The translations under genes and the position numbers were made by a program. The notes beneath the pieces are model-generated. The model was not told the origin of the DNA, did not search any database, and saw only the letters and a program-made list of their open reading frames with translations. 64,000 bases of DNA from Rhizobium sp. BK399 (GTDB lineage Bacteria; Pseudomonadota; Alphaproteobacteria; Rhizobiales; Rhizobiaceae): positions 62,001-126,000 of the forward strand of contig NZ_JACIAH010000011.1 of NCBI RefSeq assembly GCF_014194695.1, given 5' to 3'. Within the stretch, counting starts at the first letter, position 1; each line of letters begins with the position of its first letter. Below, piece by piece: positions 3,189 to 7,803 of this stretch.

Positions 3189-3614
3189 ATGACTTCCGGC
3201 GCAGACTTGAAAGACCTGACAAGGCAGATTTTCGAGGCGCGACATCAGGGGGACCTTGATGTCCTTATGTCATTCCTCGGTGACAACTGCATTTTCCGCG
3301 CGGCCGGAAGTCGGTATTTGGCGCCGCTCACCGAGCCGGTTGTCGGCAGTGCTGCACTTCGCGCGACGATGCGGCATTTCATCGACACTTGGGATATGAC
3401 GGCGCTTGAGATCCTCGACATCCATGTCGATGGCAATGTGGCGCTGGTCCATCGTAGGGGGCAGATGCCGCACGGTACTACCAAGTTCGATACCGAGGTC
3501 ATGGACAAGATGACCTTCGAGAACGGCAAGGTGATTGAGTGCGTAGAGTTCCTTGACACGCTTCAAGCTGCGTCGCTACTCAACATAGCAACGATCTCCG
3601 CGGCACAGATATAA
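3189..3614 (+). CDS. NTF2-like/SnoaL-like small protein
   Basis: A 141-residue protein. I chose the ATG at 3189 because GGGAGGG lies 8 bp upstream; in-frame TTG/ATG-like codons further upstream lack a ribosome site. The sequence has the alpha-beta cone pattern of the NTF2/SnoaL superfamily: an N-terminal helix with 'IFEARHQGDLDVLMSFLGDNCIF', a central 'VVGSAALRATMRHFID' and a C-terminal sheet ending 'KMTFENGKVIECVEFLDT'. Members include ketosteroid-isomerase-like enzymes and ligand-binding proteins, so the substrate cannot be told. It is transcribed alone, convergent with the radical SAM gene. Confidence 0.8.
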   Translation: MTSGADLKDLTRQIFEARHQGDLDVLMSFLGDNCIFRAAGSRYLAPLTEPVVGSAALRATMRHFIDTWDMTALEILDIHVDGNVALVHRRGQMPHGTTKFDTEVMDKMTFENGKVIECVEFLDTLQAASLLNIATISAAQI

Positions 3615-3651: not shown

Positions 3652-5505
3652 TCAGACGGCCGGGCGCACCTTGTGGGCGTGGGTTAATTCCGCGACCTTG
3701 TGAATGTGGGAGACCGCAGCTCGCCCGCCCGCTGTCTTCGTGAAGAGTTCAAGCGTCTCATCCTCATGGTCACCGACCGGTGTCAGTGCTTGGTCCATAT
3801 AGGTCTTCGACTTTTTGTCTCGTGCGATGAAGAAGGCGCTGACTGCAAGCTTGGCAATGGTTGCACCTAGCGACAGGTGCTTGGTGACCGTTTCCCAGAC
3901 GAAGCGCGGCCAAAAGATTACAGCGCTTTCGCGTGGCAGATCGGGCCGCCGTTCCGAGGGATGCTTGAGCCGTAGAAGGCCGCTCTGCAATGGATGCACG
4001 TTTTCCAATGGTACAGTCGTGGCGAACGACACAAGGACCTTTACGAGACTGGCGAGCGGCACACCCGTGGCAACGGCCCGGCGCAGCAGCGTCTTCATGT
4101 GCTCTGGCGAATAGTAGAGCGACCAGGCCTCCTGGTAGATGTCTTCCCATTCCTGCTTGGTCATCTTCGGATGCGCCGTGCAGACGTGCTCGACGTCATA
4201 AATATTGAGGTCGGCGTCCATCTCGACGCCCTTCTTCCATAGAGTCTGGTGGTCTTCGGAGCCCGGCAGTGGCGTCAGCACGAAGAATTCGATGACATCA
4301 AGCGGCAGTTCGTGCTGGATGATCGCGATGTCGCGTCGAATCGTCTCTGGCGTGTCTGCCGGGAAGCCAAGAATGTATCCGGCTAATGTCATGATGCCTT
4401 GCGCCTTCCAGGCAAGCAACATTTTCCGGTACTCAGTGATTTTGTTCTGGTTCTTCTTGGCCGCGGTCAGGTTATCAGGGTTTACATTTTCAAGCCCGAT
4501 GAAGACGCGCGTAACGCCGGCGCGCTTGGATTTTTCGATGAAGTTGGGGATCTTGTGGCAGAGGGTGTCAACCTGGATCATCAATCCAAGTGGAATGCCG
4601 TCCTTCTCCCGGAGCTCGATCAAGCGATCGAAGATTGCCTCCCAATCTCTGTTGCGGGCGAAATTATCGTCGGTGATGAAGAACTTGTGGATGCCTTGCG
4701 CCCAGTTCATCCGCACCAGTTTTTCGACATCGTCGGCCGAGCGGAAGCGTGATTTGCGGCCTTGCACATTGATGATGGTGCAGAAAGAGCATTGGTAGGG
4801 GCAGCCGCGTCCGGCGTCGAAGCTGGTGCTGAGGCCGAGCGTCTGCGCCACATTGGTTTTCGGCAGGAAGGGAACGGCCGCACCTTCGATGCTCGGCAGG
4901 TCGTTCATGAAATTGTAGAGTGGCTCAAGCTGGCCGCTGGCCGCATCCTGCAGCACGCGTTCCAGGCGTCCTTCAGCCTCTCCGGCAAACATCGAGATAC
5001 CCATCTCGCGACAGGCATCGAGGCCGACGGCCTTGCCGTCGAGCATGGCGAGGCACCCCGACACGTGAAAGCCGCCCATCGAAACCGGAACTCCGGCCTT
5101 GCGGAAAGGGCGCGCGATGTCCAGCGCCCGGGGATACTGGTTCGACTGAACACCGACCAGCGCAACCATCCCGAAATTGTCGTGTTGAGCGAGTCGTTTC
5201 AGCAGCGCCGGAGTGTCGACCCGCGTGTTGGTCTCGTCGATGACCGTGATCTCGATCTTGACCCCTGGCCCCAGCACCTCGCGTTCTGCGCAGTCGGAGG
5301 CGATCCCGTAAATCGCGGCCAGGGAATTGGAGGGGATCATCGCCCGCCACCACCGGATCACATAGCCGTCGTCGTCGTAATGCGACGGCTTGATCAGGAT
5401 GAGCTGGAAATTCCGTTCGGCAGTCTTTGGCAGATCTTGCACGGTCACTCGCTGGTAAGAGAAATCCCCGAAAATGGACGCTACCAGACGCGGTGGATTA
5501 TACAA
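3652..5505 (-). CDS. B12-binding-type radical SAM protein, function unknown
   Basis: A 617-residue protein. Residues about 50-200 have a Rossmann-like pattern typical of the cobalamin-binding domain of class B radical SAM enzymes (SLAAIYGIAS, then MVALVGVQSNQYPRALDIARPFRKAG), but no DxHxxG cobalamin motif is visible. The radical SAM core carries CxxxCxxC at Cys235, Cys239 and Cys242 (GRGCPYQCSFCTII) for the 4Fe-4S cluster. A C-terminal region of about 200 residues (LTPLPGSEDH onward) resembles the extension of B12-dependent methyltransferases such as hopanoid methylases. The only possible 5' start is TTG at 5505, with an in-frame stop shortly upstream and no clear ribosome site; an internal GTG near codon 20 is an alternative. 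The substrate is unknown. Confidence 0.85.
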   Translation of the reverse strand: MYNPPRLVASIFGDFSYQRVTVQDLPKTAERNFQLILIKPSHYDDDGYVIRWWRAMIPSNSLAAIYGIASDCAEREVLGPGVKIEITVIDETNTRVDTPALLKRLAQHDNFGMVALVGVQSNQYPRALDIARPFRKAGVPVSMGGFHVSGCLAMLDGKAVGLDACREMGISMFAGEAEGRLERVLQDAASGQLEPLYNFMNDLPSIEGAAVPFLPKTNVAQTLGLSTSFDAGRGCPYQCSFCTIINVQGRKSRFRSADDVEKLVRMNWAQGIHKFFITDDNFARNRDWEAIFDRLIELREKDGIPLGLMIQVDTLCHKIPNFIEKSKRAGVTRVFIGLENVNPDNLTAAKKNQNKITEYRKMLLAWKAQGIMTLAGYILGFPADTPETIRRDIAIIQHELPLDVIEFFVLTPLPGSEDHQTLWKKGVEMDADLNIYDVEHVCTAHPKMTKQEWEDIYQEAWSLYYSPEHMKTLLRRAVATGVPLASLVKVLVSFATTVPLENVHPLQSGLLRLKHPSERRPDLPRESAVIFWPRFVWETVTKHLSLGATIAKLAVSAFFIARDKKSKTYMDQALTPVGDHEDETLELFTKTAGGRAAVSHIHKVAELTHAHKVRPAV

Positions 5506-5631: not shown

Positions 5632-7038
5632 TCAAAGCTCCGATTTGATGTCGCCCATCCGGTTCCATGCATCAAGACCGGCGATCTTGTAGGCTTCGGC
5701 GAGAGTCGGATAGTTGAACGTATTTTCCACAAAATACTCAACCGTGCCCTTGAGGTTTAGCACGGCCTGGCCGATGTGCACCAGCTCGGTCGCCCCTTCG
5801 CCGACGATGTGCACGCCAAGCAGCCGGCGCGTCTTCAGCGAAAAGATGAGCTTCAGAAGCCCCGTATCGAGGCCCATGATATGACCGCGCGACGTCTCGC
5901 GGAAGCGCGCAATGCCGCATTCATAGGGAATGCCGCGCTCCTTCATTTCTTCCTCGGTCAAGCCGCAGGTGGAAATCTCAGGCACGGCGTAGATGCCGTA
6001 AGGGAAGTATTTTGGCGGCTCCTTTGCGACCGCGCCGATCGCAACGCGGGCGGCGATGCGACCCTGTTCCATCGATGTGGACGCGAGGCTCGGGAAGCCG
6101 ACGACATCGCCTGCGGCATAGATGTTCGGTACCGAAGTCTGGAAGGTTTCCGGATTGACCTTAAGGCGACCGCGGCTGTCGGCTTCCAGCCCGGCAGCCG
6201 GTAGATTGAGTGTGTCGGTCGCCCCCAGACGTCCGGCAGCAAACAGAACCATGTCAGTCACCAAGTGGCGACCATTGTCGAGCTTTAGTTCTACCTTGCC
6301 GTTGTCCAGGCGCGTTACCTTGTCGGCTTTGGTGCCGAGCAGGATCTTCATGTTGCGATCGCGCAGCTGATAGGTGAAGTCTTCGACGATTTCCCGGTCG
6401 ATGAAGTCGAGCATCGTCGTTTTGGGATCGATGACTGTGACCGCGGTATCCAGGGCGCTGAAGATCGTGGCATATTCAATGCCGATGACGCCGGCGCCGA
6501 TGACAGCCATCGAGCGCGGCAGCTCTCCGATATCGAGCAGTTCGTCGCTGTCGAGTACCGTCTTGTTGTCGAACGGGATGTAGTCCGGGCGGAACGGTTT
6601 CGTGCCGACCGCAAGCAGGACACTAGCCCCGGTGACCTTGACGACCTCGCCGTCGTCCTTGACGATTTCGAGCGTCGACGCGTCGACAAAGCTTGCTTTG
6701 CCCCTGATATGCTGCACGCGGTTTCGGGCGAACTGGTGCTCCAACACCTCGACTTCGTGATCAAGGGTGATCAGCAGGCGCCGCCGAAGGTCATCGGCGC
6801 TGATTTCCTCCTTCACCCGGTAGGATCGGCCGTAGAAACCCCGCTCGCGCCAACCTGAGAGATTGAGCGCCGTTTCGCGCAGCGTCTTTGAGGGGATGGT
6901 GCCAGTATGCACCGAAACGCCGCCAACACGCTTGCCCTGCTCGATGACCAGTACCTTCTTGCCGAGCTTGGCGGCCTGGATAGCGCCGCGGCGGCCTGCC
7001 GGACCGCTACCGACAACAACGAGATCGTACTGGAACAT
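5632..7038 (-). CDS. sthA: Soluble pyridine nucleotide transhydrogenase
   Basis: A 468-residue flavoprotein that transfers hydride between NADPH and NAD in the cytoplasm. The N-terminal FAD motif is VVVGSGPAGRRGAI (residues 7-20); the NAD-binding motif is AVIGAGVIGIEYATI and the second FAD motif is YAAGDVVGFPSLAS. It belongs to the disulfide reductase fold, but the redox cysteine pair is absent: residues 42 and 47 of GGVSVHTGTIPSKT are Ser and Thr. This excludes dihydrolipoamide dehydrogenase or glutathione reductase; E. coli SthA keeps only the first Cys. AGGTGA lies just before the ATG. Confidence 0.93.
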   Translation of the reverse strand: MFQYDLVVVGSGPAGRRGAIQAAKLGKKVLVIEQGKRVGGVSVHTGTIPSKTLRETALNLSGWRERGFYGRSYRVKEEISADDLRRRLLITLDHEVEVLEHQFARNRVQHIRGKASFVDASTLEIVKDDGEVVKVTGASVLLAVGTKPFRPDYIPFDNKTVLDSDELLDIGELPRSMAVIGAGVIGIEYATIFSALDTAVTVIDPKTTMLDFIDREIVEDFTYQLRDRNMKILLGTKADKVTRLDNGKVELKLDNGRHLVTDMVLFAAGRLGATDTLNLPAAGLEADSRGRLKVNPETFQTSVPNIYAAGDVVGFPSLASTSMEQGRIAARVAIGAVAKEPPKYFPYGIYAVPEISTCGLTEEEMKERGIPYECGIARFRETSRGHIMGLDTGLLKLIFSLKTRRLLGVHIVGEGATELVHIGQAVLNLKGTVEYFVENTFNYPTLAEAYKIAGLDAWNRMGDIKSEL

Positions 7039-7140: not shown

Positions 7141-7725
7141 TCAGGATTCACTGAAGCCAAGCAGGGGTTCTAGCTTCTCGAAGGTGCGATCCATCGCGAA
7201 AGCGCGGCTGATCGGAAGCGGAATATGGCCATAGAGAATCGACATCTGTCCCTCCGCCACGTGTTCGTTCGTCTTGCTGATTGCCGCAAGGTACAGGGCT
7301 GCTGCAAGCCCGGTGCGATCGGAACCGGACAGGCAATGGATCAACAAGGGTTTCGGAGCGTCCTTCATGACCTGGATCAATTCCTTCGCCTGCTCCGGAG
7401 TAAGCTCCCTGTAAGCGGACATTGGAAAATCGATGTGCTCGATACCGAGCGACTTCGCTTGTGCGACTTCGGCTTGCCACACGGGGGTATTGACGCCGCC
7501 ACGCAGGCTGATGATCGTCTTGATCCCGTAGCGCTTCTCGAACTCCGCGATGGCCCGCGGGGAGGGCTGCGACGAGCGGTAGACCTCGCCGGCGACTACG
7601 CTATGAAAATTGTCGGTCGCGAACAGGTAGACGGCGTAGCCGCCGATCGTGAGCGTGAGGAGCGCAAGACATTGTACTGCAAGTCTCCAGGACCGTGGAA
7701 ATTGGCGGGGGGCGATCGTGGTCAT
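7141..7725 (-). CDS. Membrane-anchored tyrosine/dual-specificity phosphatase family protein
   Basis: A 194-residue protein from the ATG at 7725; an in-frame TTG at 7773 would add 16 residues. A hydrophobic segment (residues about 14-36, LAVQCLALLTLTIGGYAVYLFA) should anchor it with the catalytic domain in the periplasm. The phosphatase loop HCLSGSDRTG fits the HCxxGxxRTG signature, with catalytic Cys and Arg, and 'SLRGGVNTPVWQAE' precedes it. Homologues with this layout are annotated as dual-specificity or DSP/PTPLA-like phosphatases acting on unknown phosphoesters. It is followed by sthA about 100 bp away on the same strand. Confidence 0.85.
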   Translation of the reverse strand: MTTIAPRQFPRSWRLAVQCLALLTLTIGGYAVYLFATDNFHSVVAGEVYRSSQPSPRAIAEFEKRYGIKTIISLRGGVNTPVWQAEVAQAKSLGIEHIDFPMSAYRELTPEQAKELIQVMKDAPKPLLIHCLSGSDRTGLAAALYLAAISKTNEHVAEGQMSILYGHIPLPISRAFAMDRTFEKLEPLLGFSES

Positions 7726-7803
7726 GGAGGTCTCGAAGCAGGACGGTTGCAGCGTCCTCGCTTTGCCACCCAAACCTGACTGGCACCTGAAGCGGCCCGG
7801 GCC

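Follow-up and report, generated by a model that had tools for sequence, protein, structure and literature searches.

A stand-alone radical SAM family with a cobalamin-domain-like N-terminal region in Rhizobium, also carried by phages

Many cobalamin radical SAM enzymes have been discovered via biosynthetic clusters. Among other radical SAM enzymes, AprD4 functions without cobalamin, and the methylthiotransferases RimO and MiaB bind no B12. According to an excerpt of PMC13142503, most known cobalamin radical SAM enzymes are methylases. OxsB, TsrM and TokK hold cobalamin base-off without a histidine ligand, with a residue of the strand-3 loop below the cobalt (excerpt of PMC13331322). The gene studied here lies in a stretch of 64,000 nucleotides (the window) from a Rhizobium-like genome of 6.43 Mb. 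The encoded enzyme is of a known kind, its family is uncharacterised, and its role as phage cargo adds to its interest. As an orphan gene in culturable Rhizobium strains, it could give direct access to a new reaction.

The original prediction had read a minus-strand open reading frame from a TTG at 5505 down to 3652, and this frame is present in the window. The TTG had been taken as the only upstream start; in fact GTG codons occur at residues 20 and 22 of the TTG frame. In a relative with 94% identity (L004), an in-frame TGA stop lies directly upstream of the residue-22 GTG, and all 13 of the 13 hand-chosen upstream regions from the Rhizobium group have GTG or TTG as the residue-22 codon. Both observations favour the GTG at 5440-5442, and the product is probably a protein of 596 aa starting there rather than at the TTG. 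The dN/dS values of 0.034-0.090 against five relatives argue that the frame is more than a chance ORF, and it is a working gene under purifying selection near Rhizobium. Its GC and GC3 are those of the window. The closest named relatives, among the best 80 of 526, are from Rhizobium altiplani and R. tibeticum (both 96% identical); R. leguminosarum and R. pisi are among the groups in which the gene is present. The coding sequence and the radical SAM features are as follows.

3652..5442, minus strand: CDS of the radical SAM protein, 596 aa, likeliest start GTG 5440-5442 (start-codon comparison, upstream stop in a relative, dN/dS)
5443..5505, minus strand: TTG extension to residue 21 of the longer frame, probably an untranslated leader (open in the window, TGA in L004, most family alignments starting downstream)
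4333..4812, minus strand: radical SAM core (PF04055; Pfam, E 1.4e-17)
4780..4803, minus strand: CX3CX2C iron-sulfur cluster motif, Cys235/239/242 of the TTG ORF (sequence and alignments)

The protein is a member of the radical SAM superfamily (PF04055, 64.8 bits against a cut-off of 29.5). Radical_SAM was its sole Pfam match over cut-off and was matched by all 65 aligned members. The cluster motif, described as intact in the original prediction, is indeed so, with the three cysteines invariant in 20 of 20 and in 65 of 65 aligned members. Other strongly conserved segments are KPSHYDDDGY, DETN, VGVQSNQxPRAxD, GGFHxSG, FAGEAE, GRGCPxxCSFCxIINVQGRxSR, and TDDNxARN. Among the best 25 of 29 NCBIfam matches, nothing scored above its cut-off. 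The two best matches were HpnJ (TIGR03471, 62.6 bits against 577.6) and BchE (TIGR02026, 59.4 against 481.35), both confined to residues 228-480. PhpK (53.5 against 600), HpnR (46.6 against 650), and the AprD4 family (NF033070, 36.6 against 500) scored lower, and the protein is thus outside the BchE, HpnJ, HpnR, and AprD4 families as their cut-offs define them.

The whole-protein matches among these 25 stop by residue 480, and the first 196 residues of the 596-aa product had no meaningful NCBIfam match. The C-terminal 200 residues had been thought to be shared with lipid or natural-product methylases. This was not borne out, as neither the last 200 nor the last 149 residues gave a meaningful NCBIfam match, and the best E for the C-terminal pieces (0.088) was to an unrelated protein. 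Since all NCBIfam matches are below threshold and neither terminus has a meaningful one, the sequences form a distinct family of their own, without a name or an assigned reaction. Orthology to a characterised enzyme, named in the original prediction as evidence that would count against it, was looked for in NCBIfam and by PDB sequence comparison; no characterised orthologue was found, and the nearest PDB sequence was AprD4. The family was also absent from the open-licence PMC literature searched, which is a weak kind of absence.

The region ahead of the radical SAM barrel had been predicted to be a B12-type domain lacking the DxHxxG motif. The AlphaFold2 model (pLDDT 87.4, pTM 0.87) agrees with this reading, as it places a Rossmann-type domain there. 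Its main features are listed below.

4915..5415, minus strand: N-terminal Rossmann-type (cobalamin-domain-like) region, strands and helices alternating in AlphaFold2 models
5362..5379, minus strand: YDDDGY motif in the loop after strand 1, the site where DxHxxG would lie (alignments)
5140..5154, minus strand: GVQSN directly after strand 3, Gln in 65/65; the place is analogous to that of the lower-face residues of OxsB, TsrM and TokK (excerpt of PMC13331322)
3820..3924, minus strand: long C-terminal helix, hydrophobic/aromatic then cationic, candidate membrane-surface contact (model and helix scoring)

DxHxxG is missing from the loop after strand 1 in all 65 members. The string occurs in two of the 65, both times far from this loop, and the MetH-type His-on arrangement was not found. 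The original prediction had singled out this absence. It is expected rather than anomalous, because a histidine ligand is likewise missing from the base-off cobalamin of OxsB, TsrM, and TokK, as the same excerpt describes. In the VGVQSN segment, the glutamine (residue 120 of the TTG ORF, 99 of the 596 aa) is present in 65 of 65 members and Asn101 is near-invariant.

The best structural match to the model was AprD4 (Z 23.6, 396 aligned residues, 3.2 A, model residues 10-454). It was followed by the B12 enzymes MgmA (Z 20.3, 361 aligned, 3.2 A), TsrM (Z 19.1, 421 aligned, 3.8 A), CysS (Z 19.1, 437 aligned, 4.5 A), and OxsB (Z 17.8, 414 aligned, 4.2 A), and then by RimO and MiaB (Z 16.1-16.8). 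The matches to TsrM, CysS, and OxsB extend into the C-terminal helices. With TokK, these three span about residues 8-550 of the model, and the predicted structure thus has the class-1 layout of Rossmann domain, barrel, and C-terminal helices. When the N-domain was isolated, OxsB (Z 10.9) tied with a CheY-like receiver (10.6), and therefore the fold does not prove B12 binding. Foldseek alone found nothing for the N-domain at E 0.001, and an N-domain profile searched against the PDB gave one chance match and no B12 protein. Pfam B12-binding had no match in the window protein and weakly matched 12 of the 65 members (best E 2.3e-4). CobS was found in 35 of 38 carriers, and the other three all have B12-binding enzymes and a cobalamin riboswitch. 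The B12 handling of the carriers agrees with B12 use and is no proof of it; carriers alone were sampled, which gives no contrast.

The last long helix has a mean H of 0.66 (65 members) and is followed by a mean net charge of +5.4 (63 members). The C-terminal helices have low hydrophobic moments (0.33 and 0.23, against 0.20-0.56 in other helices), and the top amphipathic/charge score of the window protein lies elsewhere, at residues 329-346. The pattern fits a membrane surface indirectly.

The upstream neighbour of the gene in the window is sthA (5632-7038, minus strand), and on its other side the gene faces a SnoaL-like gene (3189-3614, plus strand). sthA was upstream in 20 of the 82 loci searched, all from Rhizobium or closely related Rhizobiales. 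We therefore rejected an sthA operon as a functional link and regard the arrangement as local synteny. Upstream of sthA, the window encodes a dual-specificity phosphatase-like protein (7141-7773), which is 53-79% identical in five of the 82 loci, all Rhizobium or Rhizobiales. Neighbours were clustered for 38 representatives less than 78% identical, with a simple ORF caller that may miss or invent genes. The families found in at least three of the 38 were antisense shadow ORFs, two LysR-like sets (named by eye), and one further cluster in five. Among 133 ORFs of at least 80 aa and at most two genes away in 37 loci (the phage locus left out), ABC transporter and LysR were the commonest Pfam families, with five of 133 each. 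The gene was originally said to stand alone, and it does: no neighbour is conserved across the 37 diverse loci.

Two plasmid neighbourhoods had suggested general stress regulation. The regions ahead of the window gene and of the anchor ORFs were therefore scanned for EcfG, anaerobox, and -24/-12 patterns. Only EcfG-like strings came up, in five cases, four of them from close Rhizobium relatives and none in the window, and this idea was dropped. Elsewhere, one copy lies beside what appear by eye to be two toxin-antitoxin pairs (L203 6278-9683). In another two loci, belonging to one family, the gene follows an apparent sucA and sucB on the same strand (L204 6437-12162 and L205 6978-12766, also by eye).

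Family members were counted as carriers, with distant radical SAM matches set apart. Of 41 near-relative genomes, 20 are carriers: 18 of 25 in the same genus (own genome included) and two of 16 in the same order. At the class level, 19 of 289 genomes have the gene, own included and one in pieces only. At the phylum level, 17 of 398 genomes have it at E 1e-60, including the own genome and two with a sister branch. Among the best 80 of 526 relatives, the named loci are mostly from Hyphomicrobiales and include metagenome-assembled genomes (MAGs) of Acetobacteraceae, Acidobacteriota, a Brocadiaceae, and a Spartobacterium. The family is thus patchy in Alphaproteobacteria, and MAGs assigned to Acidobacteriota, Planctomycetota, and Verrucomicrobiota have it as well. 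Two or three copies, sometimes arranged in tandem, are present in several genomes. Decay of the gene is seen in some rhizobia, as a C-terminal remnant remains about 1 kb from an insertion sequence in Sinorhizobium meliloti psymA (L135 8001-8454), and a copy on an R. lusitanum plasmid is split across two ORFs (L134 9923-11778).

Copies of the gene were also identified in IMG/VR phage contigs. The reference copy is as follows.

L154 (IMG/VR contig 3300046450_001092), 8998-10611: phage-borne copy, full-length, in a variable slot

The phage copy is full-length and 53% identical over 515 residues. Contigs of this lineage encode a terminase, a FabA/FabZ-type dehydratase, and, in some, an AlkB-like oxygenase that shares the slot of the gene. 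Since the one contig tested has a match to T7-type RNA polymerase, the lineage is T7-like by inference. Eight contigs hold the whole gene, and a ninth (L172) has its 3' part and FabZ. The slot lies between a RepL-like gene and the next small gene, which is winged-helix-like. It contains the gene in 8 of 18 contigs and lacks it in 10; these 18 remain from 25 contigs found by FabZ, after seven without the whole slot were left out, and three of the eight filled contigs have identical proteins, which leaves fewer independent cases. FabZ lies downstream of the gene in all eight contigs that hold the whole gene. In six of six aligned phage FabZ-type proteins, the GHFP histidine and the PGVLIxE glutamate, which we take to be the catalytic residues, are invariant. 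FabZ was rejected as a clue to the substrate, since it is also present in the 10 of 18 contigs with an empty slot (all were found by FabZ, so it is present by selection). Because FabZ with an empty slot is equally common, FabZ is a marker of the phage lineage rather than of the enzyme.

A quick tree without bootstrap places the phage copies in a single clade inside an Acidobacteriota/Planctomycetota group, with SH-aLRT 100 for the clade and for the group. A prophage-like contig has another copy, which lies between terminase and head-tail connector genes on the strand opposite to theirs (L158 8986-10770), placed as a moron would lie. No named record in INPHARED matches the phage copy, and the six best BFVD matches were generic radical SAM structures at 11-14% identity. 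Among the neighbours, PADLOC gave only single matches or presumed generic families (mad3 and mad2, five of 133 each) and no defence island.

The sister branch was found in a different class of the phylum, in 2 of 48 genomes at E 1e-60, and is 39-46% identical to the members compared.

L208, 4627-14349: sister-branch locus
L209, 1397-10240: sister-branch locus with two tandem copies, the second cut by the contig end

At these loci, the gene adjoins a one-module NRPS (condensation, AMP-binding, carrier, and thioesterase domains), and an LCM-family methyltransferase and a VTT-domain membrane protein are also encoded. The branch is apart from the rest of the family (SH-aLRT 100, tree rooted on this branch). 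The NRPS and methyltransferase neighbours hint at an acyl- or amino-acid-derived substrate for the sister branch only.

We tentatively favour, at somewhat below even odds, a stand-alone cobalamin-type radical SAM enzyme, with C-methylation as the likeliest reaction and, as its substrate, something common that may be membrane-associated or acyl. In this reading, the binding of cobalamin, the reaction, and the substrate are all inferred. Cobalamin would sit base-off between the Rossmann domain and the barrel, with VGVQSN (Gln99 and Asn101) under the cobalt in place of a histidine. SAM would be cleaved at the 4Fe-4S cluster, and the 5'-deoxyadenosyl radical would abstract a hydrogen from an unactivated carbon of the substrate, to which methylcobalamin would most likely give its methyl group. 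Methylation is preferred over ring formation because most known cobalamin radical SAM enzymes methylate (excerpt of PMC13142503). A common substrate is suggested by a gene that is both stand-alone and mobile, and a substrate independent of a dedicated operon would account for the gene moving alone between bacteria and phages. A bolder proposal, which we consider doubtful, is that the family acts without partners on a component shared by all cells, with an acyl lipid as the first guess. It would make a modification so far undescribed in Rhizobium and its relatives, and a phage lineage and a prophage would carry it as gain/loss cargo that remodels the infected cell. If the enzyme acts on a common membrane component, this would be an unrecognised modification across several phyla that phages also use.

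The alternatives differ in the use of cobalamin and in the reaction. The protein might be a cobalamin-free enzyme of the AprD4 type, in which the Rossmann domain is a scaffold or substrate lid and the radical drives dehydration or dehydrogenation. AprD4 is the top structural match by 3 Z units and the top PDB sequence match, the loop at the site of the histidine motif is the acidic YDDDGY, and the window member has no Pfam B12-binding match. We nevertheless regard this as possible rather than likely, since B12 enzymes make up most of the structural matches ranked after AprD4, 12 of the 65 members do match Pfam B12-binding weakly, and the AprD4 family score is 36.6 bits against 500. A non-methylating cobalamin enzyme like BchE or HpnJ, which forms a ring or oxidises its substrate, is suggested by the two best NCBIfam matches. 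Their scores are only about 1/8 to 1/9 of the cut-offs over residues 228-480, and partner pathway genes are lacking, which makes this reading rather unlikely. The gene might instead be host-modifying or antiviral cargo that phages and prophages spread, with nucleotides as one example of a target. Its gain and loss in one phage slot (8 of 18 contigs filled), the opposite-strand copy within structural genes of the prophage-like contig, the patchy spread, and a weak similarity to PDC-M51A, a defence candidate (8e-9; 4.5e-10 for the phage copy), are in line with this. The similarity to PDC-M51A (32.8 bits) reflects the general fold, though, no defence island was found among the neighbours, most copies are in cellular genomes, and the place downstream of sthA is kept in 20 Rhizobium-group loci. 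We thus consider a cargo gene of this kind improbable.

The idea of a hopanoid enzyme (HpnP, HpnR, or HpnJ) goes back to the original prediction, which named HpnP/HpnR-type methylases, and the similarity to the HpnJ and HpnR models is distant. Kinship with lipid methylases of the HpnP/HpnR type was not upheld: HpnR scored far below its cut-off, no HpnP model was among the best 25 of 29 NCBIfam matches, and squalene-hopene cyclase over cut-off was found in none of the 20 carriers (own genome included) among the 41 near relatives. Six of these carriers have sub-threshold cyclase pieces (E 3e-6 to 1.4e-5), and the only one of the 41 genomes above the cyclase cut-off (G028) is a non-carrier. Rhodopseudomonas, a carrier outside the 41-genome sample, makes hopanoids. 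We rejected a hopanoid role for the near-relative lineage; since no cyclase over cut-off was found in the 20 carriers and Rhizobium tropici lacks all six key hopanoid genes (excerpt of PMC12583986), hopanoid chemistry is excluded in practice in this lineage, and such an enzyme is extremely improbable.

Compared with known systems, HpnJ and BchE share the radical SAM core with the window family and differ from it in scoring far below cut-off and in the absence of a hopanoid pathway from the examined carriers. The family member WP_188346274.1 is 45% identical, and its database name is a description, not a function. AprD4, a radical SAM 1,2-diol dehydratase (PDB 6fd2), resembles the protein in fold over model residues 10-454 of 596, with a Rossmann domain before the barrel, but is only 18% identical, and the window family has no recurrent partner genes. 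OxsB, TsrM, TokK, and CysS are 13-17% identical in structural alignment, and both YDDDGY and VGVQSN, as well as the lack of recurrent partner genes, set the window family apart from them. They are nevertheless like it in domain order and in having no DxHxxG, and the window family may also resemble OxsB, TsrM, and TokK in a lower-face residue after strand 3, where these three have theirs (excerpt of PMC13331322).
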